In this document: positions 34-52,934 of the stretch, in pieces
How positions within the stretch are numbered: the stretch's first letter is position 1
Layout of the letters: each line of letters opens with the position of its first letter
From: a virus
Direction: 5' to 3' (one strand)
IMG/VR virus record: IMGVR_UViG_3300021959_000043
Span: 1 to 59,531 of that record
Length of the DNA stretch: 59,531 bases
Notes under the pieces: generated by a model
Seen by the model: only the letters and a program-made list of their open reading frames with translations
Database searches by the model: none
What the model was told of the DNA's origin: nothing
Position numbers and translations under genes: made by a program

Positions 34-312
34 TTATAAGTTATACTTCTTCTTGTATTTTTCTATTTTAATAAGCAATACAGATGCTTTAGCATATTCT
101 TCAGCGTCTTCTAGTTCTTTTAAATCTAAGTATAAATCGTCTAGTTCTTGTTTAATTAATTCTTGCTGCGTTATAGTACCATACTCTAATTCAGGGTTTT
201 GTTTTGATATTTCTTCTAAGTCTTCTTTAAACTTCTCATCATATTCTATTTGATGCTTCATTATTTTATCTACTATTAAATCAGCGAGTTCGTTCATTTG
301 TTTTTTATTCAT
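34..312 (-). CDS. Hypothetical acidic coiled-coil protein (92 aa)
   Basis: A small, charged, largely helical protein. Residues about 20-85 are rich in Glu and Lys with leucine/isoleucine spacing typical of a coiled coil. I do not recognise a family. It is the only gene of its leftward transcript, and promoter copy 1 lies immediately upstream. The -10-like GATAAT ends only six bases before the ATG, so the predicted transcript would start at or next to the start codon (leaderless). A perfect hairpin follows the stop. Its place among promoter-served small genes suggests an early function, which is inference. Confidence 0.6.
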   Translation of the reverse strand: MNKKQMNELADLIVDKIMKHQIEYDEKFKEDLEEISKQNPELEYGTITQQELIKQELDDLYLDLKELEDAEEYAKASVLLIKIEKYKKKYNL

Positions 313-317
313 ATTTA

Positions 318-349
318 TATTATCTATTTATTAATTTATTAAGTCCGTG
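318..349 (-). promoter_or_regulatory. Leftward promoter, copy 1
   Basis: On the minus strand the sequence reads CACGGACTT, then 16 bases measured from CACGGA, then ATAGATAATA. The same two blocks with the same 16-base spacing occur at five other sites on this strand, with a weaker seventh. Read as a sigma-70-like promoter it gives GGACTT-N17-GATAAT. It drives the 92-aa gene with essentially no leader. Confidence 0.65.
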
Positions 350-396
350 TGTCTGTCATAATCCTAGCTCCCATTGTTTAACTTTAAATGACAAGT

Positions 397-451
397 AAAA
401 AAGAAATAATATAAATAATATTGTAGTTATTCTATTATATTTGTTTCTTTT
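397..451 (-). terminator. AT-rich inverted repeat ending the leftward small-gene operon
   Basis: On the minus strand AAAAGAAA followed by an ATATAATA block pairs with a TATTAT block and TTTCTTTT further on, ending in a T-run. It sits just after the stop at 459 of the last gene in the 459-1549 operon and before promoter copy 1, where a terminator is expected. The stem is imperfect and AT-only. Confidence 0.35.
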
Positions 452-458
452 AATCATA

Positions 459-668
459 TTAGTTGCCATTTCTATTAAGTGTTAGACCAAGTTGGTCTGC
501 TGCATAGTTAATATGCCTTTGAGTTGTTACACTCCACCAACCTAGCTGATCAAGTGTTTGATTACAATAGTCTATCTTAGCTACCCTAGTTGTATAACTC
601 ATTACGTAATCGTTTCCGTCCCATTGTATTACACATAGGTTTTGCTTGTATTTGCTAAATTTTCTCAT
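459..668 (-). CDS. Small phage protein with W-x-x-TT-x-x-H-x-NYAA motif (69 aa)
   Basis: Residues about 44-57 read WWSVTTQRHINYAADQ, a pattern I associate with a family of tiny phage proteins of unknown role that end in a similar S-x-TT-x-x-H-x-NY motif. The N-terminal half has a W-D-G-N-D-Y-V turn and looks beta-rich. It is the last gene of an operon starting from promoter copy 2. Its ATG overlaps the TGA of the 53-aa gene upstream (ATGA), so translation is probably coupled. Function unknown. Confidence 0.65.
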   Translation of the reverse strand: MRKFSKYKQNLCVIQWDGNDYVMSYTTRVAKIDYCNQTLDQLGWWSVTTQRHINYAADQLGLTLNRNGN

Positions 669-826
669 AATATGTCTAATGTTTTTTTGTTTAATATTAT
701 TGGTGATTCATCTTTATGTGTTGAAACAAAGTATATGCCTGATGTTTCTTTAATTAACACGTTTTTATCTTTAAATTTCTTAGGATATTTATCCTTAACA
801 TATTGTTCTATTTTTTTTCTATTCAT
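665..826 (-). CDS. Hypothetical small basic protein (53 aa)
   Basis: An open frame on the minus strand starts MNRKKIEQYVKDKYPKKF and ends in TLDIL. It is lysine-rich, with an N-terminal helix and a beta-like centre (NVLIKETSGIYFVS). I do not recognise it. Its ATG overlaps the stop of the 160-aa gene upstream (ATGA), and its own TGA overlaps the ATG of the 69-aa gene downstream. That double coupling is the main reason to believe a gene this short. Confidence 0.6.
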   Translation of the reverse strand: MNRKKIEQYVKDKYPKKFKDKNVLIKETSGIYFVSTHKDESPIILNKKTLDIL

Positions 827-1305
827 AATTCTATTTTTATTTCTTGTTGTTTATAGCCTTTACTTTCTAATTCATCAATAATATCTTCTTCAAATCTTTC
901 AGATAAATACTCAAACAATTGGCTTATAGCATCATCAATATACTGTTGATGTAGATCATCTACATATATAATTTCAGGGTAGTCTTCATCACCATTAGAA
1001 TATTTAATAAATTCTTCAAGCGCATCGCCTAAATCACTATCATAATAATATACGTTTTCGCTTATGTTTATATTATTCATATCATGTGTAGCAACGTGAA
1101 CTGAATAACCATCAACTGTTGATTCTTCATATATATAAAAGTCTGCCTTATTATTCCAGTTATCTACAAACTCTATATTAAAATGCTTTAACACTGATTC
1201 TTTAGCTAGATCTTGATCACTAGCTTGTTCATCACCAAAGCCTATAGCTTCTAGTTTTTCATTAATTAATTCGTTTGTGATTAGTTTTTCTTTAGTCATT
1301 GTCAT
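823..1305 (-). CDS. Hypothetical acidic protein (about 160 aa)
   Basis: A strongly acidic protein (many D/E) with a tyrosine-rich middle, NVYYYDSDLGDALEEF. Such acidic small proteins in phage early regions are sometimes DNA mimics or inhibitors, but nothing here proves that. The frame is open as far as 1380. I place the start at 1305 (or 1299), because these two ATGs overlap the stop of the 85-aa gene upstream, within ATGACAATGACTAA. The longer version would sit inside that gene and begin with an unlikely hydrophobic segment. Confidence 0.6.
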   Translation of the reverse strand: MTMTKEKLITNELINEKLEAIGFGDEQASDQDLAKESVLKHFNIEFVDNWNNKADFYIYEESTVDGYSVHVATHDMNNINISENVYYYDSDLGDALEEFIKYSNGDEDYPEIIYVDDLHQQYIDDAISQLFEYLSERFEEDIIDELESKGYKQQEIKIEL

Positions 1306-1549
1306 TTTTTTTAAAGTTATTAAATAAGTTATCGCCATATTTCCAATCCCACGATGATACCATAGACATATTAAGATCACCGAATAGATGTATATTTTTT
1401 ATAGTAGACATAGGTAGATCGTCGTAGAACATAGCATTGTCTAACTCTGCAAGTGTATAGCATACTGTTGAGTAACTATCTACGTTGTTTATAAGAGCAT
1501 TGTGTATCTCTGGTTTTAATCTGTGTAATAAAGTTTCTAGTTCTGCCAT
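1292..1549 (-). CDS. Hypothetical protein, first gene of an early operon (85 aa)
   Basis: The product begins MAELETLLHRLKPEIHNAL and ends in NNFKKNDND. It looks mixed helical with two W residues near the C-terminus. No family recognised. It is the first gene downstream of promoter copy 2, with a predicted leader of about 14 bases. Its stop overlaps the probable start of the 160-aa gene, so these genes form one leftward operon (1549 to 459). Confidence 0.6.
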   Translation of the reverse strand: MAELETLLHRLKPEIHNALINNVDSYSTVCYTLAELDNAMFYDDLPMSTIKNIHLFGDLNMSMVSSWDWKYGDNLFNNFKKNDND

Positions 1550-1569
1550 TGTTTTTGTTTTTATAATTA

Positions 1570-1601
1570 TATTATCTATAAACTAATTTGTTTTATCCGT
1601 G
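1570..1601 (-). promoter_or_regulatory. Leftward promoter, copy 2
   Basis: The minus strand reads CACGGATAA, then 16 bases after CACGGA, then ATAGATAATA. Block sequence and spacing match the other copies. The first downstream ATG (1549) is about 20 bases past the GATAAT box. It serves the operon at 459-1549. Confidence 0.65.
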
Positions 1602-1611
1602 TAGCTATTTT

Positions 1612-1838
1612 GTAACTAGTGAGGAATCGAACCTCAATACCCGTCAGTAAGTCTTATCTCCGTACTTAAACGTGTGATTTTTCCAGACCTAGTTATTCAG
1701 CCTTCCTTCCTCTTTGTAGCGTCATATATCTTGCTACCAGTGCTCGGGTTCAGGCATACTAGCGATTCACTTATGTGTAATTCCAGAGGCAGGAATTTAC
1801 TGACCTTGATTTACCTAATTAAGCTACTCGTCTAGTTA
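1612..1838 (-). ncRNA. Structured RNA with tRNA-like acceptor and T-arm (tmRNA-like or intron-split tRNA candidate)
   Basis: On the minus strand TAACTAG (1838-1832) can pair with CTAGTTA (1619-1613) as a 7-bp acceptor stem. It is preceded on the 3' side by a canonical T-arm, TGAGG-TTCGATT-CCTCA (1636-1620). Inside, GTCAGTAA (1804-1797) pairs perfectly with TTACTGAC (1650-1643). The middle also holds hairpins AATTCC/GGAATT (1797-1779) and GTAGC/GCTAC (1737-1716). A D-loop-like stretch, TAGCTTAATTAGGTA, follows the 5' acceptor strand. This topology (acceptor, D-like region, long helix, insert, T-arm) is that of tmRNA. However, I see no ALAA-type tag codons, no G3-U70 pair and no encoded CCA. 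A second TAACTAG at 1695-1689 could pair with the same 3' strand. It lies directly after the 64-aa gene, whose stop codon falls inside the acceptor strand. Confidence 0.5.
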
Positions 1839-2030
1839 TTTTCTCCGCCATGACCTATGAACCACGGCGGAGAGAGACTGACTTACTATTTGTATAGTGT
1901 TGCCTGTCTTGTGATTGATTATTGGTATATAAGAATATGTTTCTGTTGTTGAACAATCTACACACGTTTTATAACCTAAGGCTAACCTGCCTTCAGGTAT
2001 TTTTGTATTTGGTTTACATTTACAGTACAT
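1836..2030 (-). CDS. Small zinc-ribbon-like protein (64 aa)
   Basis: The N-terminus has CKC at residues 3-5 and C-V-D-C at about 23-26, a CxC...CxxC arrangement that could bind one zinc ion. The centre carries NHKTGNTIQIV, which looks like a conserved surface loop. I recognise this as a type of small phage protein but know no function. Promoter copy 3 lies just upstream (leader about 18 bases). Its stop codon forms part of the acceptor strand of the structured RNA at 1612-1838, so the two are probably co-transcribed. Confidence 0.6.
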   Translation of the reverse strand: MYCKCKPNTKIPEGRLALGYKTCVDCSTTETYSYIPIINHKTGNTIQIVSQSLSAVVHRSWRRK

Positions 2031-2054
2031 AATTATATTTTTTTGTTACACATA

Positions 2055-2086
2055 TATTATCTATAGTAATTTTAAATTAGTCAGTG
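2055..2086 (-). promoter_or_regulatory. Leftward promoter, copy 3
   Basis: The minus strand reads CACTGACTA, then 16 bases after CACTGA, then ATAGATAATA. CTGACT-N17-GATAAT is close to a sigma-70 consensus. It serves the 64-aa gene and the structured RNA. Confidence 0.65.
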
Positions 2087-2092
2087 TAGTAA

Positions 2093-2218
2093 TTACATCA
2101 TATCTACCTCAAAACAAACTTGTGAATTGCAATATCCATTTGTATCTAAAGCACTTCCACATTCTTCACAGCTTACAGGTAAATGCTCGTCCCAGTTATT
2201 ATAGTCATACCAATTCAT
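2093..2218 (-). CDS. Tiny cysteine-rich zinc-finger-like protein (41 aa)
   Basis: The product starts MNWYDYNNWDEHLPVSCEEC. Its cysteines are arranged C18-x2-C21-x8-C30-x4-C35, which suits a single zinc ribbon. The ATG overlaps the TGA of the 135-aa gene upstream (ATGA), supporting translation. It ends just before promoter copy 3. Family unknown. Confidence 0.55.
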   Translation of the reverse strand: MNWYDYNNWDEHLPVSCEECGSALDTNGYCNSQVCFEVDMM

Positions 2219-2622
2219 ATTGAATACATTGTTAAGTTTCTCATGTTATAATTTCTTTTGCAAAATTCTACGATATATATAAGTCGTGCAAGTGGATCAT
2301 GTATTAATTCTCTAGCATAACATATAGCTTTAAGTGTTTTTAGTTTGCCATCTTGTATGACTGTCCATCGCTCTTCACGCTTATACTGTTTGTTTAGTTG
2401 ATATATTCTGTCGCTTGAATTACATCTTCTGACATAACCTGTTTTGTATGAGGCTATTTGATCACCATTAGGCAATACAAATTGTCTTGTGCCATTTTTC
2501 TTTTGTCTGTCAGTAGTCATTTCTTTGATATTGTACTCTACAAACATACGTTTAGCAAATAAATCTACTAATTCTACACGTCTCTGTCGCCAGTCCATAT
2601 GCTCTTGTTCTAAGTTTCTCAT
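2215..2622 (-). CDS. Hypothetical basic protein (135 aa)
   Basis: An Arg/Lys/Tyr-rich soluble protein. The N-terminal third is helical (QEHMDWRQRRVELVDLFAKRMF). The middle has a beta-like QFVLPNGDQIASYKTGYVRR segment, and the C-terminal part is helical with a Cys (about residue 120). No family recognised; the charge would suit nucleic-acid binding. Its start is coupled by ATGA to the 57-aa gene upstream and its stop to the 41-aa gene downstream. Promoter copy 4, inside the upstream gene, would also transcribe it. Confidence 0.6.
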   Translation of the reverse strand: MRNLEQEHMDWRQRRVELVDLFAKRMFVEYNIKEMTTDRQKKNGTRQFVLPNGDQIASYKTGYVRRCNSSDRIYQLNKQYKREERWTVIQDGKLKTLKAICYARELIHDPLARLIYIVEFCKRNYNMRNLTMYSI

Positions 2623-2792
2623 AGCTTTTTTTGTTTTACATTTATATTATCTGTAGTTTTATAAATTAAGTCAGTGTAGTCTTTGTACACAGCTTCTACT
2701 ATTAAGTCTCGCTCGTCGTCACTACAAGTGGCAAAGCCAAACTCGCCAAACCACTCTTGTGCTAATGTATCTAATTTCTTTGTTACGCTCAT
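2619..2792 (-). CDS. Hypothetical small protein overlapping a promoter (57 aa)
   Basis: The product starts MSVTKKLDTLAQEWFGEFGF and ends in NVKQKKL. It is mostly helical and acidic in the middle. Unknown family. The start lies 3 bases after the stop of the 80-aa gene, and its TGA overlaps the next ATG (2622). Its last third (residues about 39-53) is encoded by the same bases that form promoter copy 4, so the reading frame and the promoter constrain each other. Confidence 0.55.
   Translation of the reverse strand: MSVTKKLDTLAQEWFGEFGFATCSDDERDLIVEAVYKDYTDLIYKTTDNINVKQKKL
2645..2676 (-). promoter_or_regulatory. Leftward promoter, copy 4 (inside a gene)
   Basis: The minus strand reads CACTGACTT, then 16 bases after CACTGA, then ACAGATAATA. 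It overlaps the 3' end of the 57-aa gene and would start transcription about 20 bases before the ATG at 2622. Confidence 0.6.
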
Positions 2793-2794
2793 AA

Positions 2795-3037
2795 TTATTG
2801 TATGTTAAATGGTGATGGTACGTATTCTACATAGGTAAGACCTTTATAATTAAAGAATTCAGTAATACCTTCTTGATCTTTTTCTTCGTTATAAATAAAC
2901 GCAAAGCGTTTTGGTAGCTCACCTACAGGATAACCTTTGTATATCACATTATTTAGCGATATAGTAGTTTTGTTTTTGAATTTAATAGTGTTAATCTCCA
3001 TAGTTTCTGGGTTGATTTTGATGTTTGTTTCTCGCAT
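2795..3037 (-). CDS. Hypothetical beta-rich protein (80 aa)
   Basis: Reads as an all-beta small domain: TMEINTIKFKNKTTISLNNVIYKGYPVGEL, then RFAFIYNEEKD and a C-terminal GLTYVEYVPSPFNIQ. No family recognised. It starts 3 bases after the stop of the 42-aa gene and belongs to the operon driven by promoter copy 5. Confidence 0.55.
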   Translation of the reverse strand: MRETNIKINPETMEINTIKFKNKTTISLNNVIYKGYPVGELPKRFAFIYNEEKDQEGITEFFNYKGLTYVEYVPSPFNIQ

Positions 3038-3040
3038 AGT

Positions 3041-3169
3041 TTAAAATATTAATTTAGTTGTTATTTTTTGATATAAGTAATCTTGTATAGTTTCTGTGTA
3101 CTTTTCTACGCAGTCTGTACTTGGATTAAATGGAAACTTTTCCTGTAAGTTGGTTATTAGTTTTTCCAT
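3041..3169 (-). CDS. Hypothetical micro-protein (42 aa)
   Basis: The product starts MEKLITNLQEKFPFNPSTDC and ends in KITTKLIF, probably helical with one Cys. It is the first open frame after promoter copy 5 and is separated from it by a leader of about 90 bases, the longest among these early units. Evidence is only position and tight spacing to the next gene (3 bases between stop and ATG). Confidence 0.45.
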   Translation of the reverse strand: MEKLITNLQEKFPFNPSTDCVEKYTETIQDYLYQKITTKLIF

Positions 3170-3265
3170 AGTTTAAAGGTGTTATTTTGTTTAGTTAATA
3201 AAAAAGGTGTTAAGGTACAATGCACTATGTGACTGCCTGTAACTAATAAATTATGATTTCGAATA

Positions 3266-3297
3266 TATTATCTGTAGTTTGTTGACGCAAGTCCGTG
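3266..3297 (-). promoter_or_regulatory. Leftward promoter, copy 5, with a long leader
   Basis: The minus strand reads GCACGGACTTGCG, with ACAGATAATA 16 bases after CACGGA. A 17-base block ACGCAAGTCCGTGCGAG (plus strand) is identical to that of copy 6. The predicted leader (about 3260-3170) contains AACACCTTT twice and could hold regulation, but I see no known riboswitch. Confidence 0.65.
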
Positions 3298-3321
3298 CGA
3301 GAAACGTAAATGGTAATAAAA

Positions 3322-3369
3322 AACTGACAAAAGCTAATTAAGTATATAAGTAACTAGCTAATGTCAGTG
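3322..3369. promoter_or_regulatory. Divergent promoter dyad 1 (TGACA-N32-TGTCA)
   Basis: The plus strand reads AACTGA-N16-ATATAAGTAA (3322-3353). The minus strand reads CACTGA-N16-ATATACTTAA (3369-3338). The two share a central TATA-rich core and are flanked by ACTGACA and TGTCAGT, so the whole element is an imperfect palindrome holding back-to-back promoters. The same design recurs at 3935-3982. Confidence 0.55.
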
Positions 3370-3375
3370 TGAGGT

Positions 3376-3615
3376 TTATACTATTTTATCTAAGTCTCTT
3401 ACAAATTTTGGTAGATTATTAGAGTTTGTATAAGAGCTGTACTTGTCGAAGCAAGGCATTGAATCAAACTTGCTTTTTAATTGATTGTAAACTAGGTCAT
3501 GGTCGTAAGTACATTGTTCTTTGTTTTTGTTAGTAAATGTAATCACTGTATTTTTACCGATTAGTGACTTACGGATTACAAATCTTTTTGTTGTTAGTTT
3601 TTGTTGAGTTTTCAT
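3376..3615 (-). CDS. Hypothetical basic protein (79 aa)
   Basis: The product starts MKTQQKLTTKRFVIRKSLIG and ends in PKFVRDLDKIV. It is basic, with a beta-like N-terminal half and a helical C-terminal half, and has no recognised family. The frame is open up to 3678, but promoter copy 6 has its -10 box at 3660-3655, inside the longer version. A transcript from it begins near 3648, so the ATG at 3615 (33-base leader) is the better start. Confidence 0.5.
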   Translation of the reverse strand: MKTQQKLTTKRFVIRKSLIGKNTVITFTNKNKEQCTYDHDLVYNQLKSKFDSMPCFDKYSSYTNSNNLPKFVRDLDKIV

Positions 3616-3653
3616 AGAATATAATTTAATATAAGCTTCGTTGCTTACAAACA

Positions 3654-3685
3654 TATTATCATTTATACCAATACGCAAGTCCGTG
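3654..3685 (-). promoter_or_regulatory. Leftward promoter, copy 6
   Basis: The minus strand reads GCACGGACTTGCG, with AATGATAATA 16 bases after CACGGA. It shares ACGCAAGTCCGTGCGAG (plus strand) with copy 5. It serves the 79-aa gene. Confidence 0.6.
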
Positions 3686-3702
3686 CGAGTAGATTAGTAG
3701 GT

Positions 3703-3734
3703 ACATATCAGTATAATGTAGTCGCAAGTCCGTG
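3703..3734 (-). promoter_or_regulatory. Possible leftward promoter, copy 7 (degenerate)
   Basis: The minus strand has CACGGACTTGCG as in copies 5 and 6. The expected -10 position reads ACTGATATGT, matching only part of the consensus. It lies about 50 bases upstream of copy 6 and may be a decayed or weak tandem promoter, or only the binding half-site. Confidence 0.3.
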
Positions 3735-3934: not shown

Positions 3935-3982
3935 ATGTGACACAAGGTACCTAAGTATATAAGTAGCCGCCTATTGTCAGTC
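3935..3982. promoter_or_regulatory. Divergent promoter dyad 2 (TGACA-N32-TGTCA)
   Basis: The plus strand reads ATGTGA-N16-ATATAAGTAG (3935-3966). The minus strand reads GACTGA-N16-ATATACTTAG (3982-3951). TGACA (3938-3942) and TGTCA (3975-3979) flank exactly 32 bases, as in dyad 1. The rightward arm would transcribe the gene at 4045 with a leader of about 70 bases. A further TATAAT at 4021-4026 lacks a good -35. Confidence 0.55.
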
Positions 3983-17546: not shown

Positions 17547-18563
17547 ATGGGCTTTAGATCAAATAGATTATATTCTCACGGAACTCAATTAGCAAATCAA
17601 GTTGAAGAAAAAAAAATAGCAGATCAAGCTAGAATTGATTCAATGAAATCCGTTCCTGGTTCTGTTTATTATGACCCAACTTTTCAACAAAAAAGCGTTG
17701 ATAAATATGGTGCTGATATAAGTAATAACCAAAACGTATATGATCCTCTTGGAACATCTAAGCCGTCTTTACATTCTGGCCAACTAACAATGCAACAGTT
17801 TATGGATCAAAAACAATCACAATATATGAAATCACAGCAAGAATTAAACCAATTTGGACCAGCAGGTGCACCTAATATAATACCTAGCCAATCAAATGTA
17901 CCTAGCACTTTCAGTCAAAGCGCAGTATCTAATGCTAATGCTATGTATGGAAATAACATGGAAAGAAATGCTGCTGTAAATAATGGTATAGTACCTTCTT
18001 ACATTCAAGAACAAGCAAACTCACCTATAGCTTTTACAAATCCTCCTGGATCTGCGTATAGCGCTTTAGATACTTTAAAAAATTCTATGAAAAGCTTAGG
18101 AGACATTGCTTCTAGTGGAGGTAAAACAAACTACAACAGAGATACTAAAGGTGTTTATAACTCTATGCCTGGATTAGCACCATTACCAACAGATTCAACA
18201 GGTTCTAATTTAACTGGTTCTTATTCGAACCCATCTAGCAGTTCTAAAACACCATCTGTTACTATAAACAATACTCCAAATAGTGAAAACAAATATGATT
18301 TTTTAGAAAATCCGTCAACTCAAACTAAGATAGAGGTTACAAACCCACATATGAATTCATATACTGGTGCTTGGAAAAAAGACAACAAAACTTACGAAGC
18401 TAGAATACAAGAAGCAAAAGACGCTGGTAAAGTAAACAAAGCAGCTAGAATACAAAAAAAATATGACGATTTTACAAATAGAGGTGGTGATAGTAAAGTA
18501 AGACACGCTTTAGGTAAAATAGCAGGTGCTTTTAAATCAAAAAAAAATAAAAAAACAACATAA
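17547..18563 (+). CDS. Low-complexity Ser/Asn/Gln-rich probable virion protein (338 aa)
   Basis: Starts MGFRSNRLYSHG; an upstream in-frame ATG at 17520 would overlap the winged-helix gene, so 17547 is preferred. Residues 1-250 are S/N/Q/P-rich and probably disordered. The last 80 are a charged helix with a Lys-rich end (AFKSKKNKKTT). No domain recognised. The composition suits an internal or flexible surface virion protein. Confidence 0.55.
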   Translation: MGFRSNRLYSHGTQLANQVEEKKIADQARIDSMKSVPGSVYYDPTFQQKSVDKYGADISNNQNVYDPLGTSKPSLHSGQLTMQQFMDQKQSQYMKSQQELNQFGPAGAPNIIPSQSNVPSTFSQSAVSNANAMYGNNMERNAAVNNGIVPSYIQEQANSPIAFTNPPGSAYSALDTLKNSMKSLGDIASSGGKTNYNRDTKGVYNSMPGLAPLPTDSTGSNLTGSYSNPSSSSKTPSVTINNTPNSENKYDFLENPSTQTKIEVTNPHMNSYTGAWKKDNKTYEARIQEAKDAGKVNKAARIQKKYDDFTNRGGDSKVRHALGKIAGAFKSKKNKKTT

Positions 18564-18574
18564 AAACATAAATT

Positions 18575-18796
18575 ATGCATCATTCAAAATATGATCCAGC
18601 AATGGAAAAATTAAAACCAGGAACTAAAGTTGGTATAGTTGGAGAATCTCACGTTTGGGATGGTCCTTTAGATCAAACAGGAAGATCTCATGGAGAAGGT
18701 TCAAGTTCAGGCATAAGCGGTATGCAAATACTAAAAGCTCCTTGTCGTACATGTGAATCTAGTATACCAATTACTAAACGCGCTAAATTAGGATAA
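18575..18796 (+). CDS. Hypothetical small protein with CxxC (73 aa)
   Basis: Starts MHHSKYDPAMEKLKPGTKVG, has a Gly/Ser-rich middle, and ends CRTCESSIPITKRAKLG with a CxxC pair. Like its neighbours it has a His/Ser/Lys-rich N-terminus. It lies 11 bases after the previous gene and 1 base before the next. Function unknown; probably a minor virion or assembly component by context. Confidence 0.5.
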   Translation: MHHSKYDPAMEKLKPGTKVGIVGESHVWDGPLDQTGRSHGEGSSSGISGMQILKAPCRTCESSIPITKRAKLG

Positions 18797-18797
18797 T

Positions 18798-19229
18798 ATG
18801 TTTATAGGTAAAATTCAACACTCGGCTAAAACAAGTCCTTTGCAAAAAAAAGGGCCTTGTTGGAAAAACTACGAAATGGTAGGTATGAAAACAAAAGGAG
18901 GTAAAAAAGTTCCTAATTGTGTTCCTGTAAAAATGGAAGGTGACGTTTTAGACGGTCCATTAAAAAAAAAACGTGCAAAAAAGGAAATAAGAAAAACTAC
19001 TAAGGGTAAAGGAAGAAACTTTAGAACAAAGGAGGAAGGCGCTGGCATGACCAGTAAAGGCGTTAAAGAATATAGAAGAAAAAACCCAGGTAGTAAATTA
19101 AAGACAGCAGTTACAGGTGACGTAAAACCAGGTAGCAAAGCTGCTAAAAGAAGAAAATCATTTTGTGCTAGGTCCAAAGGTTGGACTGGCGAAAGAGGTA
19201 AAGCGGCGCGTAAGCGTTGGAAATGCTAA
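18798..19229 (+). CDS. Basic protein with DUF6321-like C-terminus and SPLQ motif (143 aa)
   Basis: Two parts. The N-terminal segment has TSPLQKKGPCWKNYEMVGMK, then GGKKVPNCVPVK. The C-terminal half runs GAGMTSKGVKEYRRKNPGSK, then LKTAVTGDVKPGSKAAKRRK and SFCARSKGW. That C-terminal pattern (G-x-T/S-x-K-G...N-P-G-S-x-L-K...A-K-R-R-K-S-F-C-A-R) is one I know as a small phage/virus domain of unknown function, often found in basic virion proteins. Overall charge is very positive, suited to DNA binding. Conserved cysteines at about 24, 41, 124 and 143 could coordinate a metal. Confidence 0.65.
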   Translation: MFIGKIQHSAKTSPLQKKGPCWKNYEMVGMKTKGGKKVPNCVPVKMEGDVLDGPLKKKRAKKEIRKTTKGKGRNFRTKEEGAGMTSKGVKEYRRKNPGSKLKTAVTGDVKPGSKAAKRRKSFCARSKGWTGERGKAARKRWKC

Positions 19230-19242
19230 AAAAAATATAACA

Positions 19243-19539
19243 ATGCCATCACCAATTAAAAATCATCACGATAAAAAAAACGTATTGCAAGACGACGGTT
19301 CTTCAATACAAGTGTCTAGCTCTGATCTTAAAAGTAAAGGAGTAGACGCTATTAAAAGCCAAATGTTAAAAGACAATCCTCCTGGTAGTGAGGGAAGAAG
19401 AGATGTTTACAATAAGTTAGACTGGAAGTATGACAATACTGTGCCAAAAACTTTTAGTGAAAAAGTAAGTCTTTTTGCAAAAACAGCTAAACATATGATT
19501 GGTAAAAAAGCAACAAACATATTAGATAAACTTAAATAA
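19243..19539 (+). CDS. Small protein starting with SPIK motif (98 aa)
   Basis: Starts MPSPIKNHHDKKNVLQDDG; the frame is open upstream to 19165, but that part lies inside the preceding gene, and 19243 follows an A-rich leader. The rest is polar with a C-terminal amphipathic helix (SLFAKTAKHMIGKKATNIL). The Met-x-Ser-Pro-Ile-Lys N-terminus recurs in the gene at 20422 and, as SPLK, in others nearby. Function unknown. Confidence 0.55.
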   Translation: MPSPIKNHHDKKNVLQDDGSSIQVSSSDLKSKGVDAIKSQMLKDNPPGSEGRRDVYNKLDWKYDNTVPKTFSEKVSLFAKTAKHMIGKKATNILDKLK

Positions 19540-19547
19540 ATAAAAAA

Positions 19548-20006: not shown

Positions 20007-20034
20007 AACAGTAGGGAACTGTAAAACCCAAGTC

Positions 20035-20070
20035 AAACACAAACACAAACACAAACACAAACACAAACAC
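20035..20070 (+). repeat. (AAACAC)6 tandem repeat forming a gene leader
   Basis: Six perfect copies of AAACAC end 1 base before the ATG at 20072. The repeat has no G or T, so the RNA leader is unstructured. It takes the place of a ribosome-binding site for the 94-aa protein gene. Copy number is open to slippage. A short CAGT/ACTG hairpin precedes it near 20009-20021. Confidence 0.85.
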
Positions 20071-43844: not shown

Positions 43845-45575
43845 ATGAGTTACGAAAATCCACAAAGACTATATACGGGAGACACACCAGCTGGAGCTTA
43901 TTTGAAGCAAATTCAAATGCAACAAAACCAAAGAGACGCTGAAGAAAAGCAAAGAAAAGCTGACACCTTAAGAAAGCAAGCTGAGGAAAAGCAGCTTATT
44001 CAAAGAATGCAAAGAGTTCAAGGTGATGCTGATGTTTGGAACTTAGAGCAGATGAGTAATTTGGCTACCGCTCCAAAGACTAGCGCTATACAAGATGAAT
44101 TAATGAAAACATTGAATAGTAGAATAGATATAGCAACTCAAGCACAAATATATTTAAAAACACAATTTGGTGATAGTGAAAAAAGAAACTTAGCTAAAAA
44201 AGCAATACAAGATTATTACGATTTACTTAATTTAACATCAAAGACAACTAAAAACTTTGTTGCAACTGGAGATTACTGGAAAGAAAATGCACCTCAAATA
44301 GGTAAAAAAATAACTATATTAGGTGATACTCCTGATGAAATAGCAAATAATCAGTTTTTAGTAAATGCTCTTGGTGGTATATACAGTAATGCAAACTTTG
44401 AAATGGTTTATGACGAAGAAAAAAACGACATAATGGTAAAAGTTTCAGGTAATGAACCACAAAGATTACAAGACGGTAAACTAATAGAAGGAGATTATAG
44501 AGAAAAATATATAAGTGCTAGAGCGTGGGATGCCAACGTTGTCCAAGGGGATAACTTTTCTTTTATATCTACAGTTCCACAGTTGGTAAACGAATCTATA
44601 GAAATGATGAAACCAGCTGATAAAACCAAAAACGGCAATGGCTTAGGTATAGTAGGTGCAAATGGTCAGTTTGCTAACAAGTACTGGTCTGAACCTGTTA
44701 TATTTAGAGATAGAATACAAATAGAAGGTAGTAAAAGAAGTAGAAGAACTGAAGAAATAAGATCTTATTTAAACATGGATTTAGTTAAACAAGACATGGA
44801 ATCTATATTAGCTTCAAAAATAAAAGGCGTTACTTCAAACGTTCAACAAGCAGCTAATGGATGGAACGTTGACCTTAAAAAACTTGACGAAGGAATAGAA
44901 AATGATTATCAAACTCTTCAGCCTTCAGAGCAAGAATATAAAGATGCTTTGTTTCAACAAATAATGGAAGCAAGAACAAACGGTTTAGTTCAAGATAGTC
45001 AAGGTAGGTGGTATAAAGCTCAAAACAAAAGTATAACTCAACCAACTGGCAAAGGTAGTGGAAAAACAATAACACCACCAGGGTATAGATCAGAATATTA
45101 TGACAATATAATAATGGCTGATGGAGACAACAATGAAGACACTATTATAGAAAACTTAACTAAAATAACTGGTCCTAATAGTAGATACATGAGTAGAGAT
45201 AAAGCTTATTCTTACTGGCTTAGTGCTCCTAAAAACAGCAAGTTTCCAAACGGCTCAACTAATGAAGAATACTACGAAGATAAAGACGAAGACCCGAGAG
45301 CTGCTTTTAATAAAAAGCTACCTAAAGATGGTCTTTACAAGTACGTCAATGGTCAGTTAAGATACGCTGGTGATTATGACCTTAATAGCGCTGAAGAAAG
45401 ACTTAATTTTGCTTTAGATAACTCAACTGCGTCTGAAAGAAAAGTAATAGATAAATCTGGATTAAGATTAAAAGCTATAAAAATAGATTGGATGAGTAAT
45501 AATCCTATGAGAGGCATGGAGACGCCAGAAGGATATGCTTTAAGAATGAATGAAGCTTTAAAAATAAAAAAATAA
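43845..45575 (+). CDS. Probable internal/cargo virion protein (576 aa)
   Basis: The first 60 residues are a Gln/Lys helix (YLKQIQMQQNQRDAEEKQRK). The rest is mixed, with conserved-looking blocks (DYYDLLNLTSKTTKNFVATG; SYWLSAPKNSKFPNGSTNEE). It lies between the gp14-like protein and the giant 2452-aa protein with no gap to the latter. That is the usual order of injected proteins in podoviruses. No enzymatic motif found. Confidence 0.55.
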   Translation: MSYENPQRLYTGDTPAGAYLKQIQMQQNQRDAEEKQRKADTLRKQAEEKQLIQRMQRVQGDADVWNLEQMSNLATAPKTSAIQDELMKTLNSRIDIATQAQIYLKTQFGDSEKRNLAKKAIQDYYDLLNLTSKTTKNFVATGDYWKENAPQIGKKITILGDTPDEIANNQFLVNALGGIYSNANFEMVYDEEKNDIMVKVSGNEPQRLQDGKLIEGDYREKYISARAWDANVVQGDNFSFISTVPQLVNESIEMMKPADKTKNGNGLGIVGANGQFANKYWSEPVIFRDRIQIEGSKRSRRTEEIRSYLNMDLVKQDMESILASKIKGVTSNVQQAANGWNVDLKKLDEGIENDYQTLQPSEQEYKDALFQQIMEARTNGLVQDSQGRWYKAQNKSITQPTGKGSGKTITPPGYRSEYYDNIIMADGDNNEDTIIENLTKITGPNSRYMSRDKAYSYWLSAPKNSKFPNGSTNEEYYEDKDEDPRAAFNKKLPKDGLYKYVNGQLRYAGDYDLNSAEERLNFALDNSTASERKVIDKSGLRLKAIKIDWMSNNPMRGMETPEGYALRMNEALKIKK

Positions 45576-48500
45576 ATGGAAATATATATTCTACCTAACG
45601 GACAAGAGATAGATTTATCTAATTATTCTCAACAAGAAAAAATATTGTGGCTTTCGGAAAACACTGGTGCTAAATTAAAAAAAGAACAGGGTGTTGCAGC
45701 GAGTGCAAATGCGATGCCATCAAACATGTTTGCACAAGAGCAAAATGGGGGTTTAGTTTCGGAAAATACTTTATCGGTATCTCCAGGTAGTTTAGATATA
45801 AATAGTTTTCAATATTTTAATGAAGACCCACAAGAAACAGAAGAACTAACTAATTCAATAGGATCTGCTTTAGGTAAGTATAATAGTAACGAAAAACCTA
45901 GCATCAATAGGTTTGGGTTATATGAAGATCAAAATATTCAATTAGCTATAGATGGAAACTTTATAAACGAAGAAGATTTAATAAATGCTGGTTATAAAGA
46001 TGATCCTTCTGGTTTGTCAGCTATAAAACCTGTAACTGCAGAGCAAAGATTAACAGCTAGAAATAAAATAGCAACGTATCAAAGCAAGAGTGAAAATGAA
46101 ATATCTTCTTATATAGATATTTTAAAACTAAACGAACCTTATATATATGAAGATAAAAGCTCTAATGATGAGTTTGTTAATGAAATATACGGTGATGTAG
46201 AATTAGATGGATTTAATACCACTGATTTTGATGGGTATATGGAATCTAAAGGTTATAAAAATGACTTAAAAAGATTTTTAGAATTAGAAATGGATACTAA
46301 GTCTTATGGTACTAATGTTGATACTGAACTTTCTTACGAGCAAAAAAAGCTGCAGTATCTTAACATGTATATAAATGACCAAATACAGAGAGATATAAAA
46401 CAACAGCAGTTAATGTATCAAGCTGAAACAGGTATTGATCCTAAACTGAAAGGTGTTAAATTTAATTTATCAGAAGGTAACATAAAACTTCAAAATTATG
46501 AAAATTATTTAAGACAAGATTTTCCTGTTTTATCTTCTAAAATGCAAGCTGTTGATGAAAAAAATCAATTAGAATACCAAAAATTAATAGACTCTGATGG
46601 AAACATAGGAGCTGGTCAGTTTCTTTTAAATATAGGTGGCAATGGTTTAAATGGTTTATCTGATGCTATATCTCAATTTAGTGCTTCTGTATATGGTGCA
46701 TTACCAGGTGATTACTTTGAGGGTATAGCCGAGCAAACAAGACAAGAATTGCTGTTGGAAGAAATGGGTTTAGATACTGATGGAACATTTTATACAGGTC
46801 CAGGTAGATTTGTTAGTGGAATAGGAAAATCCATAATAGATAAAGACACAGGTACTAAATATTTAGTTACAGAAAACGGTAGAATATTTGACAAAGATAG
46901 ATCTTTGGATGCAACCAACTTTTTAAGTCAACAAAAGGCAAATCAAATAAGAAAAGAAGCCAGAAAAAGAGGCGTAAAAGATAACGCATTTAGTGTTCTT
47001 GGTGCTTTTGATTCTGGAGCTAATGTTGTTGGTGACTTATTTTTTCAAATAGCTTTAACAAGAAGCATAGGTAACGGTATTAGATCTGTTGGTGGTTTTA
47101 CCGCAGGTTTAGGTGTTTTAGGAAAAACAAAAGGTTTTTTAAAATCTATTCCTATTAAGAAAAGCATGGGAGATGCTATAATAGGTCAATCCACATTAGG
47201 TTTTTCTAGAGGATATGAAGAAACGTTATCTCAAGCTAGAAAAATGGGTTTAAATGATAACGAAGCTTCTGAACTAGCGGCTATAGCATCTGTTCAAACA
47301 GGTATACTATATGCTTTAACAGCACCAATATCCCCTCAAACTAAAGCAACAGACGCTATATTTGGTAAATTGACAACTTCAAACATAGTGGGTAATGCTT
47401 TAAAAGAATATACTAAAAAAGGAAAAAAAGGTTTTTTAGACTACTTTAGAACTGGCAAGCTTGGCACACTTGTAAATGTAAGTGGAGAAGGAATTAAAGA
47501 AGTGTTTCAAGAAAATGTTCAACAGTCGGGTGAAATGTTTGTTGTAAACAAAAACACAAACGATAGAGCCGCTAGAAAAATAATGAAAGATACCATAAGT
47601 CTTCAAGATTTTATAGATACTACTGTTTTATCTTTCTTTGCTGGCGCTATAATACCTGGAGCTGGAGTTACTTTAAATTTAGCTAAGAAAACAGCTAGAG
47701 ACATGTTAGGTATGTCTAATGTAGATAGATTTAATAATTTAAGTTATTTATCATATAATAAAGAAAAAGTAAAAAGCTTGTTGGCTACTCAAGTTGAACA
47801 AGGTATATATACGCAACAAGAGGCTGATCAAGTTATTGAGGAAATGAATGTTTTTAATGATAACATAAACAGAATGCCTCAAGATTTATCTGCAGACGCT
47901 GCTACAGAAATTCTAGGAGATGTTAACGAGGTAGGTAAGCTTAGACAACAAAGAAAAACAGAAAGTCCATCTTTTCATGCTGAAACAGATAAGAGAATAA
48001 AGGAGTTAGATGATAAAATACAAAGAGCATATTATAATGATATAACTAAAAGAAAATCTGGTGTTATAGTTAAAGCTATAAAAAAAGGTGTTATAAAGAA
48101 TATTTCTTGGAATGAATTTGAATCCACAGACAAGGTAGTTGATTTTTTAGTTAATGAATTAAACTATACTAAAGCTAAAGCTGTAGAGACAGCTTCTAAA
48201 TATGGTATTGCTGTTCAAAGAGATGGAAAACAATATATACTTATAAACAACGAAAAATCTGCTAAAGATGGTAAAATAACTGTTAAAGAGCACGAGTTTT
48301 TACATGCTGTTATATATGAAACTATAAAAAACGACACGGAAGCACAGGTATTATTAGGTAGATCTTTATTAAGTGAGGTTTTAAAACTACAAGATAAAAT
48401 AAACTTAACTGACTCAGATAAAAAAGCTCTTCCAGAAGAGTTTCTTCAAGATTATGCTGGTTATATTGCTTTTTATAATAAATTAATAAAAGGTCTTGAC

Positions 48501-51500
48501 TTAGATTTAAAATCTGGAATTATAAATAAAATAGAGTACGACAATAAAGTAAGTCAAGCTATAGGTAATCAATGGGAAGAGGTGTTAACATTGTATTCAG
48601 ATGCTATAACAGTAGGAGCCGTTAGTTACGATCAAGACACCATGACTAGACTAGGAGACGTGCTTAGGCAAGTCTTGCAATTTTTAGGTTTAAAAGATAT
48701 AAAATTTTCTAGTGCTAAAGATGTTTATAATTTTATAAAAGACTATAACAATAGTATAAATAATAGAATACTAAGTATAGATAAAAACAGATCAATAAAA
48801 AAATTAGCTACTAAAGGAACAACTATAGATAAAGAAGCTTTAAAAACTGAAATTAAAAAATCAGAAAATAAGTTTAAAAAAGAAGCTCCTAAAGAACCTA
48901 TACTTGATAGAGAACCAACAATAGATGAAATAGAAGAAATAGAAGACATTTATAATTTTGATGAAAAGTTTTCTTTAAAACCAAATAGAAGATATACTCA
49001 AGATGAATTTCAAGCTGGTATAAATTCTTTATATAATAAAAATAAATGGGAAAAACCTAGCGGTATTGACGCTGTTCTTTATGATGTGTTAAGTAACTAT
49101 GAAAAAATAATACTTGACAAAGCTTACTCAATGTATAGCCAACTACCTGATTATAGTTCTGAAGATATGCTAGCAGAAACAACTATAGCTTTAATTCCAC
49201 ATATAAGAAATTTTAATAAAGAATTTTTACAATTAAGAAGTAAAAAAAGAAAAGAACTACAAGATAAGGGTTTATCATCTAGCGAAATAAATAGCACTTT
49301 AAACAAATTAGATGAAAAAGGTTATACTAACAGTAAAGGTGTAGTTGTAAAAGAAAACAATAATCTTAACGGTTGGATAAATAGTCAGTTGAGAAACAAA
49401 ATGAAAGTTGCTTTAAAGTCTGGAAATGTAACTAGCCAACAATATACAGATGAAATAGATGAAAAAATAACATCTATAGAAACTACTAACCCTGATGTTT
49501 TAGATCAAGAAAAACAAGAGTACGAAAAAAATCAAGATGAACTTGTTGTTTTACTTAAAAATCCTAACTTTGGTTTTTCAAATAAAGATGGTGAGCCTAT
49601 ATTAATAGAAGGCGTACCTGTTGGCGGTGACTTCGCTATAACAGCTGAAGATCCATCTATAGCTGTTAATAGAAAACTAAAAACAGTTAGTGATCCAGCC
49701 ATAAAATCTCAATTAGAACAAGAAAAAAGAGATTTAAAAAGAGGTTTAGAGTTAGAATCAAAAGAGTCTTTGAGTAATGACGAGGTAAAAGAATTAAAAG
49801 AATTAAAATCTTTTAAAACTTATAGTTTAGCGTCTGGTGGCATGATAAAAACATATAAGGCTTATTCTGAACAAATAAATCCAGCCGCAATAATAGCTGC
49901 TGAAGTTAGAAAAGAAATAATATCTTCACCTAATATAGAAACTTTAAATTTTAGATCTTTTAAAAAGAAACTAGCGTTGCTTTCTCAAACACTTACTAGA
50001 AGAATGACTTTTCAAAATAGTAAAGAACTAGAATCTTTTATGTTTAATAACTGGAAACTAATATGGGATGTTATAAATAACCCTATAGATCCAGTTACAG
50101 GTGAGTCAACTTATGCTATAAAGAAAATACCACCTAGGTTAAAACAAACTAATGATAAAGGTTTTCCTATAAAGACTAAAAATATAAATGTTGCTAGTTT
50201 TTTACAAAATTATTTTGGATTAGATGAAGCTACTAGAATAATACAAACTTTTAGTAAAAACCCTAACACTTTAATTAAAAAACTATCACCTATAGAACTA
50301 GGTAGAACTGGTAATAAACTTTGGTCAACGGCTTATTTTGATAGAAGAACAGCATTGATGGAGTTATTTGGAGATGTTGTTGTGCTTCAAGAAGCAAGAA
50401 AATCTATTAAAAACGATGCTTTTATAAATGAGATATCTAAAAGAAACCCAGGCTTAGCTAATGATTTGAAAGACTCAAACATTAGAAGTAAAGTTTTAAA
50501 CAATTTAGCTTCTGGTAAATCTTCAAACGTTAAATTTAGCCTAAAAAATGGTTCTAAAAATAACTCTAAAATAACATCTTACTTAAAATCAACTAATAAT
50601 ATAGATGAACAATTGTTCTTAGCTAGAATACTAGATAAAGCGACCTCAGAGGTTATAAAATATAACAGAAAAGCAATAAAGTTTAATGTTCCAGATCTTG
50701 GTAAAATGAATGATAAAGCGGTTTCTTATTATTTAATAAATAAAATATCTCAAGGCTATAATGATTTTTATTTTAAAAATGATAAAAACTGGAAAGGCAA
50801 AGAATCTAGAAATGTTTTAGATACATCTGATGTTAAGTTTTCTTTAAATAACGATAGAAATGAATTAAGCTCAAACTTGTCAACTGCTTTTAATCAAATA
50901 ATAGAAGAAAATTCTGGAATACCTTTTGATGAAACTTTTTCTAAAGCAAGAGCTGAAAACATGGGTAGAAAACTAGGCAAAGAAGGAGTATATCTTCCTT
51001 CTGGTGACTCTGACTTTTTAGGTTTAATGTATATGATAGCTTCTGCTAAAGGTAAAAAAGGTGAAAAACAACTTAAATGGCTAGATGATAATCTTATAAG
51101 TCTATACTCACAAGGTGTTTTAGATATGATAAACGCTAGAAACGCAGCTCATAGAGACTGGAAGAATTTATTTGACAAACCAACAAAAAAATTAATAAGA
51201 AAAGAATCTTCTTATGCAGGCTTTACAAATGATCAAGCTATAAGAGTTTATTTATGGAAAAAAGCAGGTTTTGAAATAAGTGACTTAGATAATAAAGATA
51301 TTTTTAATTTATCAGAGGTAGTAAGAAATAACCCTCGTCTTAGAAAGATAGCACAAGAAGTTAGTAGACTATCTAAGCAACCTGGTGGTTATTTAGAACC
51401 TCCAAGAGCTTGGCAAGAAGGTAACATACTTACTGATATTCAAAACATATTGTCTAAAGTAAATAGATTAAAGTATTTAACAAGGTTTAAACAAAATGTT

Positions 51501-52934
51501 GATTTGATATTTAGCAAGGAAAATATAAACAAACTAGAAGCTACTTTAGGTGAAGATTATGTTGAAGCTTTACAAAATATATTAGATAGAATGATATCAG
51601 GATCAAATAGACCTGATATAAAATCTAAAAATAGTAGAGCTTGGGTTGATTGGTTAAATGGTTCTATAGGTGTTACTATGTTTTTTAACATGAGATCAGC
51701 TGCTTTACAGTTGCTTTCTTCTACGAATTTTATTAACATGGATTTCAATAACCCTTTTGCTGCTGGTAAAGCTGTATTGAATTTACCTCAAATGCAAAAA
51801 GATTTTTTAACACTTTGGAATTCTCCATATTTAAAAGATAGAAGATCAGGTTTATTAAGTGATCTACAAGAATCAGAAATAGTTGACGTTGTTAATAATC
51901 CTAATAATAAAAACTGGATAGATAAATCAAAAGGTTTAATATTTTGGGCTTTAAAGAAAGGTTTTATACCAACTAGAGCCGCTGATAGTTTAGCTATAAC
52001 GTTAGGTGGTACTACTTTTTATAGAAACAGAATAAATGATCTAGTTAAAAAAGGCATGGAGCTAGAAGCCGCTGAAAAACAAGCTTTTAAAGAATTTTAT
52101 GAAACTGCTGAAATGAGTCAACAGTCAGCTGATCCTTCTAAAATATCTAAAAACCAAGCCTCTATAGAAGGTAGGTTGTTTTTATCATTTCAAAACACTC
52201 CATTACAGTACTCTAGAATAATGAAAAAATCATTTATAGATATAGCTAAAGGAAGAGGCAATGCATATGGACATGTTGCTAAAATAGCTTATTATGCTGC
52301 TGTACAAAATGTAGTATTTAACTTTTTACAAAATGCGTTATTTAGAATGTGGGACGATCCTGAAGATAGAGACTTAACTAGAAGTAAGAGTAGAGCTGTA
52401 CAAGGAAGTATAGATACATTATTAAAAGGTGCAGGATTATATGGAACTTATTTTGCTGCTATAAAAAACGTAATGCTAAAAGTTTATCAATTGTCTCAAG
52501 AAGAAAGAGGTGGAAGAGGAAAAGCTGCTGAGATATTAGTTGAAGCGTTACAAGTTATGCCACCTGTTGGTATAAAGGCTAGAAAAATAGAAAGAGCTTG
52601 GAATGATTACTCTTACAATACTGATTATTTTGATGAGTACGGGTGGAATCCTATTAAAAATAAATATGCTATCAACGCATTAACAACTTTAACAGCAGCA
52701 ACACTAAATGTTCCATTAGATAGATTATATCAAAAATCACAAAACCTAGCAGGTGCTATGGACTCTTCTTATGACACGTGGGAAAGAATTGCTATGTTTA
52801 GTGGATATAGTAAATGGAATTTAGATTTAGCAGATGAACAAATACAACAAAAAGGTAATAATAACGAATTAGACTTAGGTGTAGATCTAGATTTAGATTT
52901 AGACCTTGATTTAAATCTTGATTTAGGTTTTTAA
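45576..52934 (+). CDS. Giant internal virion protein with HEFLH motif (2452 aa)
   Basis: A very large, mostly helical multidomain protein of the 'large polyvalent protein' kind that phages carry in the capsid and inject. N-terminus MEIYILPNGQEIDLSNYSQQ. A membrane-active Gly-rich stretch lies near residues 490-560. An HExxH zinc motif, TVKEHEFLHAVIYETI, lies near residue 905. The region at about residues 2030-2260 (NMRSAALQLLSSTNFINMDF...; LFLSFQNTPLQYSRIMKKSF) resembles a conserved C-terminal polyvalent domain. The protein ends in a Asp-Leu repeat (DLDLDLDLDLNLDL). Cargo or ejection role is likely. No RNA polymerase DxDxD active site is convincing. Confidence 0.65.
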   Translation: MEIYILPNGQEIDLSNYSQQEKILWLSENTGAKLKKEQGVAASANAMPSNMFAQEQNGGLVSENTLSVSPGSLDINSFQYFNEDPQETEELTNSIGSALGKYNSNEKPSINRFGLYEDQNIQLAIDGNFINEEDLINAGYKDDPSGLSAIKPVTAEQRLTARNKIATYQSKSENEISSYIDILKLNEPYIYEDKSSNDEFVNEIYGDVELDGFNTTDFDGYMESKGYKNDLKRFLELEMDTKSYGTNVDTELSYEQKKLQYLNMYINDQIQRDIKQQQLMYQAETGIDPKLKGVKFNLSEGNIKLQNYENYLRQDFPVLSSKMQAVDEKNQLEYQKLIDSDGNIGAGQFLLNIGGNGLNGLSDAISQFSASVYGALPGDYFEGIAEQTRQELLLEEMGLDTDGTFYTGPGRFVSGIGKSIIDKDTGTKYLVTENGRIFDKDRSLDATNFLSQQKANQIRKEARKRGVKDNAFSVLGAFDSGANVVGDLFFQIALTRSIGNGIRSVGGFTAGLGVLGKTKGFLKSIPIKKSMGDAIIGQSTLGFSRGYEETLSQARKMGLNDNEASELAAIASVQTGILYALTAPISPQTKATDAIFGKLTTSNIVGNALKEYTKKGKKGFLDYFRTGKLGTLVNVSGEGIKEVFQENVQQSGEMFVVNKNTNDRAARKIMKDTISLQDFIDTTVLSFFAGAIIPGAGVTLNLAKKTARDMLGMSNVDRFNNLSYLSYNKEKVKSLLATQVEQGIYTQQEADQVIEEMNVFNDNINRMPQDLSADAATEILGDVNEVGKLRQQRKTESPSFHAETDKRIKELDDKIQRAYYNDITKRKSGVIVKAIKKGVIKNISWNEFESTDKVVDFLVNELNYTKAKAVETASKYGIAVQRDGKQYILINNEKSAKDGKITVKEHEFLHAVIYETIKNDTEAQVLLGRSLLSEVLKLQDKINLTDSDKKALPEEFLQDYAGYIAFYNKLIKGLDLDLKSGIINKIEYDNKVSQAIGNQWEEVLTLYSDAITVGAVSYDQDTMTRLGDVLRQVLQFLGLKDIKFSSAKDVYNFIKDYNNSINNRILSIDKNRSIKKLATKGTTIDKEALKTEIKKSENKFKKEAPKEPILDREPTIDEIEEIEDIYNFDEKFSLKPNRRYTQDEFQAGINSLYNKNKWEKPSGIDAVLYDVLSNYEKIILDKAYSMYSQLPDYSSEDMLAETTIALIPHIRNFNKEFLQLRSKKRKELQDKGLSSSEINSTLNKLDEKGYTNSKGVVVKENNNLNGWINSQLRNKMKVALKSGNVTSQQYTDEIDEKITSIETTNPDVLDQEKQEYEKNQDELVVLLKNPNFGFSNKDGEPILIEGVPVGGDFAITAEDPSIAVNRKLKTVSDPAIKSQLEQEKRDLKRGLELESKESLSNDEVKELKELKSFKTYSLASGGMIKTYKAYSEQINPAAIIAAEVRKEIISSPNIETLNFRSFKKKLALLSQTLTRRMTFQNSKELESFMFNNWKLIWDVINNPIDPVTGESTYAIKKIPPRLKQTNDKGFPIKTKNINVASFLQNYFGLDEATRIIQTFSKNPNTLIKKLSPIELGRTGNKLWSTAYFDRRTALMELFGDVVVLQEARKSIKNDAFINEISKRNPGLANDLKDSNIRSKVLNNLASGKSSNVKFSLKNGSKNNSKITSYLKSTNNIDEQLFLARILDKATSEVIKYNRKAIKFNVPDLGKMNDKAVSYYLINKISQGYNDFYFKNDKNWKGKESRNVLDTSDVKFSLNNDRNELSSNLSTAFNQIIEENSGIPFDETFSKARAENMGRKLGKEGVYLPSGDSDFLGLMYMIASAKGKKGEKQLKWLDDNLISLYSQGVLDMINARNAAHRDWKNLFDKPTKKLIRKESSYAGFTNDQAIRVYLWKKAGFEISDLDNKDIFNLSEVVRNNPRLRKIAQEVSRLSKQPGGYLEPPRAWQEGNILTDIQNILSKVNRLKYLTRFKQNVDLIFSKENINKLEATLGEDYVEALQNILDRMISGSNRPDIKSKNSRAWVDWLNGSIGVTMFFNMRSAALQLLSSTNFINMDFNNPFAAGKAVLNLPQMQKDFLTLWNSPYLKDRRSGLLSDLQESEIVDVVNNPNNKNWIDKSKGLIFWALKKGFIPTRAADSLAITLGGTTFYRNRINDLVKKGMELEAAEKQAFKEFYETAEMSQQSADPSKISKNQASIEGRLFLSFQNTPLQYSRIMKKSFIDIAKGRGNAYGHVAKIAYYAAVQNVVFNFLQNALFRMWDDPEDRDLTRSKSRAVQGSIDTLLKGAGLYGTYFAAIKNVMLKVYQLSQEERGGRGKAAEILVEALQVMPPVGIKARKIERAWNDYSYNTDYFDEYGWNPIKNKYAINALTTLTAATLNVPLDRLYQKSQNLAGAMDSSYDTWERIAMFSGYSKWNLDLADEQIQQKGNNNELDLGVDLDLDLDLDLNLDLGF

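Follow-up and report, generated by a model that had tools for sequence, protein, structure and literature searches.

Promoters of the sigma70 class, in their Escherichia coli form, combine a -10 TATAAT and a -35 TTGACA across a spacer of 17 ± 1 bases, with transcription starting about 7 bases past the -10. Another well-described arrangement is that of the promoter-polymerase families of the related phages T7, T3 and SP6, in which the initiation half of the promoter is kept and the specificity half is switched together with a phage protein. Both systems bear on the subject of this work, a family of six promoter sites on the minus strand of IMG/VR virus record IMGVR_UViG_3300021959_000043, a 59,531-base contig that was analyzed over its whole length and is referred to here as the window (G000 in our genome set). 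Phages of Bacteroidota must begin transcription where the host primary sigma has an unusual promoter code; the box recognized by the primary sigma of Flavobacterium psychrophilum is TAnnTTTG, at positions -12 to -5 (PMC9723704).

The window contains six minus-strand copies of the pattern CACKGA-N19-GATAAT, with a gap of 19 bases in each, compared with 0.015 sites per window at the fixed gap (maximum, 1) in dinucleotide shuffles (n = 200) and 0.27 sites when the gap was left free at 10-30. An earlier note on this DNA had argued that identical spacing at these sites is hard to explain by chance, which the shuffles bear out, the gap of 19 being the 16 bases of that note plus 3. It had listed seven copies, but the last of these, at 3702-3734, is only a half-site, scoring 10.7 bits against 24.7-30.7 bits for the other six. 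The A(T/C)AGATAAT-type block that it described is not common to all copies either, given that the one at 3654 has AAATGATAAT (minus strand) instead. The sites are:

3653..3685, minus strand: promoter copy 1, CACGGACTT-N16-GATAATAT; predicted start 3648, then open reading frame (ORF) 3376-3615
3265..3297, minus strand: promoter copy 2; predicted start 3260; ORFs 3041-3169 and 2795-3037 follow a non-coding leader, and a palindromic element lies just upstream
2644..2676, minus strand: promoter copy 3, CACTGACTT variant; predicted start 2639; ORF 2215-2622
2054..2086, minus strand: promoter copy 4; predicted start 2049; ORF 1836-2030
1569..1601, minus strand: promoter copy 5, CACGGATAA variant; predicted start 1564; ORF 1292-1549
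317..349, minus strand: promoter copy 6; predicted start 312; ORF 34-312
3702..3734, minus strand: decayed half-site with the -35 part CACGGACTT only and GATATG in place of GATAAT

The location immediately before a small-gene unit, also claimed previously, is correct for five of the six copies, which are followed by leaders of 0-33 nucleotides (nt) to a plausible ATG, but not for the copy at 3297, where the leader is about 90 nt long. Copy 3 overlaps the 3' end of an ORF of 57 amino acids (aa; 2619-2792), and translation of ORF 34-312 would start either at 312, that is, leaderless, or at an in-frame ATG at 297. The predicted transcript of copy 1 begins, at 3648, with the 5'-terminal hairpin GTAAGC-aacgaa-GCTTAT. 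In the rest of the window, no copy was found in the right-hand minus block (54562-59531) or on the late strand.

The six sites lie in a block of small genes on the minus strand (34-3615), which is followed by the late genes on the plus strand (4045-54472; structural genes, GroEL, terminase and portal) and by a second minus-strand block (54562-59531) that encodes ribonucleotide reductase, MazG and other proteins. The MazG frame is open at the end of the record and, in relatives, many more early genes are present there, indicating that the record ends inside the early cluster. No DNA similarity was found between the first 12 kb of the window and phage records. The terminase is 63% identical to its counterpart in an uncultured podovirus from Manatee Spring, shares 45% identity with those of the Flavobacterium phages elemo and 33-41% with those of Cellulophaga, Maribacter and Tenacibaculum phages, and also reveals a distant kinship of the clade with crAss-like phages. 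From the cultured relatives, we infer flavobacterial hosts for this phage.

When IMG/VR was scanned with CACKGACTT-N16-GATAATAT, 39 stretches matched, mostly several per contig in large phage contigs, and the motif was detected in about 30 contigs, chiefly multi-copy relatives of 60-68 kb. Thus, in related phages, where the earlier note had suggested searching, the pattern recurs with the same spacing. In loci fetched from relatives and examined with the gap freed, 109 of the 114 matches have 19 bases, a share that is high in part because many contigs had been chosen with the fixed-gap pattern; the gap is also 19 in 18 sites beyond the reach of that pattern (CACGGAGTT, CACGGAATT, CACGGACTA and others). 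All 62 sites collected from 13 genomes are located outside ORFs of at least 80 aa and are sense-oriented toward small genes, at a distance of about 120 nt or less for most of them, with some overlapping the end of a shorter ORF. The logo of 65 sites reads ct-A-CACGGACTTA-N14-A-GATAATATA, and 97% of these have a purine at +1, 7 bases after GATAAT, mostly preceded by a pyrimidine and coinciding with the start position anticipated in the earlier note. A hairpin begins exactly at the predicted +1 in about 14 of 60 sites, with different stem sequences, although the overall excess is modest (5' hairpins with at least 6 pairs at 9 sites versus 2.8 in shuffles, with a maximum of 8). The spacing, the placement and the purine start in relatives strongly support a promoter family with fixed spacing and, judging from these sequence features, the six sites are almost certainly promoters. 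In MW202828, elemoA, phi38:1, phi19:3 and Panino (phi38:1 and phi19:3 to 50 kb), the motif reached chance-level scores only, and the output of a de novo pair search in these phages, consisting of collagen-like or simple repeats, was discarded. Several single-copy matches in IMG/VR were discarded as well because they resemble chance or coding matches (for example, L105, L114, L115 and L121, all of which represent a single stretch).

The sites resemble the sigma70 class in that GATAAT, present in all six window copies, differs by one base from TATAAT (the logo -10, GATAATATA, is similarly close), the spacer from CGGACT to GATAAT is 17 bases, the -35 shares the GAC core, and a conserved purine, the predicted start, follows 7 bases on. 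They differ from this class in the longer and stricter -35 (CACGGACTTA, which includes the core GGAC) and -10 (GATAATATA) and in belonging to phages whose relatives infect Bacteroidota, where a sigma70-type sequence is not the host code. Compared with TTGACA, CGGACT matches at three and CTGACT at four of the six positions. The promoters of the Flavobacterium primary sigma (PMC9723704) occupy the same general position relative to the start, but the TAnnTTTG box at -12 to -5 is absent from the sites, where the consensus is GATAATAT, with the caveat that the flavobacterial consensus may not be that of the host of this phage. Given the sigma70-like build of sites found in a lineage akin to phages of Flavobacteriaceae, with their distinct primary sigma code, the host core polymerase combined with a phage-supplied sigma appears most likely, and we consider it probable that the sites are read by a sigma of the phage rather than of the host.

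For further comparison, genomes with CACGGACTT promoters were denoted type A, and clade relatives without CACGGACTT, non-A. The nearest relatives by the small gene 2215-2622 (84-91% protein identity) include phages without CACGGACTT. In the same region, these phages have arrays of their own, identified by de novo search, in which GATAATA is kept and the upstream box is TACAAAC, or TCGAAT plus AATACGA, with TACAAAC in the same register relative to the -10 as CACGGACTT. The shared GATAATA combined with a different upstream box in register implies that this clade has kept its -10 unchanged while switching the -35. When all protein families were screened for presence in 8 or more of the 13 type-A genomes and in none of the 13 others, the only ones recovered were a giant protein of the late operon, its neighbor (as two alignments) and an early protein of 92 aa (34-312). 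The relevant features of the giant and its neighbor are:

45576..52934, plus strand: giant protein of the late operon (2452 aa); whole-length alignment of aa 1-1690 within type A only, aa 1700-2420 common to the whole clade
43845..45575, plus strand: neighbor of the giant, 576 aa, co-segregating with the promoter type
48291..48305, plus strand: zincin motif HEFLH, aa 906-910 of the giant; HExxH is present in both promoter types
48966..49445, plus strand: segment resembling sigma region 2, aa 1131-1290 of the giant, with an insertion between the second and last helices

Among the very large genes of the late operon, that of the giant comes last, at a place where a 3694-aa “structural protein” is annotated in the elemo phages. 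Among the genomes and contigs compared, none was found to be discordant between the type of the giant and the type of the promoter. In the tree of TerL, portal and major capsid protein, type A forms two clades, and the non-A genomes G001, G005, G006, G007 and G009 are placed beside the clade of the window with a support of 0.87, so that the match between giant and promoter is not easily accounted for by common descent alone. A type-A giant was also found in 22 further contigs, only one of which has a site; those without the motif were considered as potential counterexamples and dismissed, given that the small-gene and sigma markers are lacking in 13 of the 14 contigs that were read, the exception being the contig with the site.

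Behind the zincin motif, the type-A giants share a segment that looks like sigma region 2 interrupted by an insertion (YDIL.EYE.II.KA..LY..LP..S.ED...ET.IALIPHIRNFNKEF ... LN.WINSQL.NKMK.AL). Weak matches to PF04542 were detected at this segment in three giants (G004, G017, G025) and at its equivalent in two more (G010, G012). An AlphaFold model of aa 1120-1660 of the window's giant (11 sequences; mean pLDDT 72) was compared with known structures using VIA-align, and the first 14 matches are all sigma factors, with Z of 5.7-7.2, all on model residues 7-175. The matching segment of a non-A giant, that of G012, was folded independently from 6 sequences, with useful confidence only for residues 27-108; sigma factors account for 35 of its 37 Foldseek matches in PDB and for nearly all of its VIA-align matches, with the best Z of 7.3. 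The agreement of two models from divergent lineages is persuasive, and the segment of the giant seems to adopt a fold like that of sigma region 2. The type-A profile of this segment does not match the non-A giants, so that only position and fold connect the sigma2-like segments of the two types. With the segment of the giant as the query, a PDB sequence search returned nothing relevant, and a search of a viral structure library yielded no significant match.

These observations suggest a possible mechanism in which the giant would be packaged in the virion and ejected with the DNA, and would then bind the host core RNA polymerase via its sigma2-like domain. This domain would read the invariant -10, the lineage-specific neighboring part of the giant would read the -35, and transcription of the small-gene region would start at the six sites. 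That the giant is the reader of these promoters is a tentative assignment, to which we give somewhat less than even weight. The fuller proposal of a virion-delivered sigma, that is, a domain in an ejected giant that seizes the host core polymerase at once, with the -35-reading part exchanged between lineages and the early promoters following suit, is put forward more tentatively still; here we infer the early timing and, for the giant, packaging, ejection, core binding and -35 reading. Several observations weigh against the giant as the reader. Pfam gives no sigma match in the window's own giant, each of the fold matches is individually below the significance level of the respective tool (Z < 8; Foldseek E > 0.1), and no region 4 was identified in the giant by Pfam or in the fold search of aa 1120-1660. 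The profile-profile comparison with the sigma encoded by the relatives (sigma254, described below) is weak. The 92-aa early protein also co-segregates with type A (10 of 13 genomes), and the key node of the tree has a support of 0.87: if type A were a single clade, the co-segregation would amount to a single event. Furthermore, packaging is predicted from the position of the gene, and the promoted small-gene region is probably early as judged by position and gene type only.

The main rival to the giant is sigma254, a 250-aa sigma70-family protein (phrog_351, E 1e-13 to 3e-19) that is encoded in the early cluster of all near-complete genomes of the clade and contains regions 2 and 4 (PF04542 and PF04545 matches); no match was found in the window, whose record ends inside the early cluster. 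If sigma254 read the sites, these would be middle or self-amplifying promoters, and the giant would follow the promoter type by linkage only, its sigma2-like part serving, for example, to restrain the host polymerase. The constant -10 is found in the same clade as sigma254, and the five phages in which only chance-level motif scores were obtained lack sigma254 as well. However, no column of the sigma254 alignment separates the different -35 types, its tree follows the genomes rather than the promoter type, and sigma254 would be needed before its own promoters could work, so this explanation, although a serious one, appears unlikely. Somewhat less probable still is reading by the host RNA polymerase with its own sigma, either sigmaA or an alternative one. 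This would be the simplest plan for early genes, as in many phages, and is compatible with the 17-base spacing and the near-consensus -10, but the absence of the flavobacterial box (subject to the caveat on the host) argues against it, and with a host sigma one would not expect a -35 that switches, along with a phage protein, inside a single phage clade.

Two further explanations are highly improbable. Because crAss-like phages, to which the clade is distantly akin by terminase, carry a virion polymerase in their giants, a phage or virion RNA polymerase of the N4 or crAss type could be envisaged as the reader, but a scan of giants and smaller plus-strand proteins showed neither DFDxD nor DxDGD, the giants have no match in PDB by sequence, and the sites show the two-box geometry of sigma70-like promoters. 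The repetition of a short sequence on one strand of one region could also reflect binding sites for a protein or replication sites rather than promoters; such sites would hardly account for the sense orientation ahead of genes in 62 of 62 cases, the -35/-10 architecture, the conserved purine start, and hairpins starting exactly at the predicted +1 in about a quarter of the sites.

As in the T7/T3/SP6 group, the initiation half of the promoter is kept in this clade and the specificity half is switched together with a phage protein; unlike in that group, no single-subunit polymerase is involved as the partner, which is linked to the promoter by co-segregation only. With the virion RNA polymerases of N4, P23-45 (PMC10770324) and crAss-like phages, the giant as envisaged here shares its great size, its late gene and its proposed role of going into the cell to set off early transcription, but it has a sigma2-like domain and no polymerase motif was seen in it, so that the host core polymerase would be needed. 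Phage-encoded sigmas of the phrog_351 family (for example, in the phiEco32-like phage 7-11, PMC8948821) have a counterpart in the relatives of the window, which does not track the -35 type; such sigmas are made after infection, unlike the proposed virion-delivered giant. If the giant is indeed an ejected sigma, this would be a delivery route of which no description was found in a limited literature search. With a defined promoter and its predicted start, relatives in which only the -35 is switched, and a structural-type candidate reader, promoter-reader co-evolution becomes directly testable, and a promoter/sigma pair independent of the host code could also be of use in Bacteroidota genetics.

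The giants show additional variation among lineages. In non-A giants (for example, L178:11104-19467), a conserved HAD-like block, VFDFDDTLA ... LTARP, that is missing from the type-A consensus precedes the shared C-terminal part; the DFDDT in this block was considered as a polymerase motif and rejected because it looks like a HAD phosphatase motif instead. Some type-A phages (G031 25456-35154, G015 45011-55051, G024 18422-28069) have insertions of about 750 aa after aa ~1650 of the giant (window numbering) that are absent from others. A second sigma, of the ECF type, is encoded in the small-gene region of three type-A relatives (G004 19021-19614, G025 54726-55214, G033 52480-52965) and, being present in only 3 of 45 records, was rejected as the common reader.

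Within the small-gene region of the window, a 240-base gap (1610-1900) separates the promoter at 1601 from ORF 1836-2030; no ORF or tRNA was called in this gap, unlike the early regions of relatives, which carry tRNAs. After promoter copy 2, the apparently non-coding leader of about 90 nt (3170-3260, minus strand), which precedes a 42-aa ORF, contains a ATAGTGCATT-like stretch that is common to such leaders, being found also downstream of G004 15884, G030 51850, G033 47797 and G025 50153. This leader is possibly a small RNA or a structured leader.

The sigma254 gene mostly adjoins the gene of a 207-aa protein with a C-terminal helix-turn-helix, which, with a single separating column in its alignment, does not track the -35 type either. 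Just upstream of the operon of these two genes, most clade genomes of both promoter types carry an interrupted palindrome, TGACAnTAG...CTAnTGTCA, with 32-34 bases between the arms (43 of the matches found). A further copy precedes one early promoter or lies at the early/late boundary. Positions of the element in relatives include G004 15191, 15813 and 20518, G022 16886 and 24721, and G002 5835 and 14125. The copies in the window are:

3325..3366, no strand assigned: interrupted palindrome TGACA-N32-TGTCA, upstream of promoter copy 2
3938..3979, no strand assigned: second copy of the palindrome, ahead of the late genes

This palindrome may be the operator of the helix-turn-helix protein.

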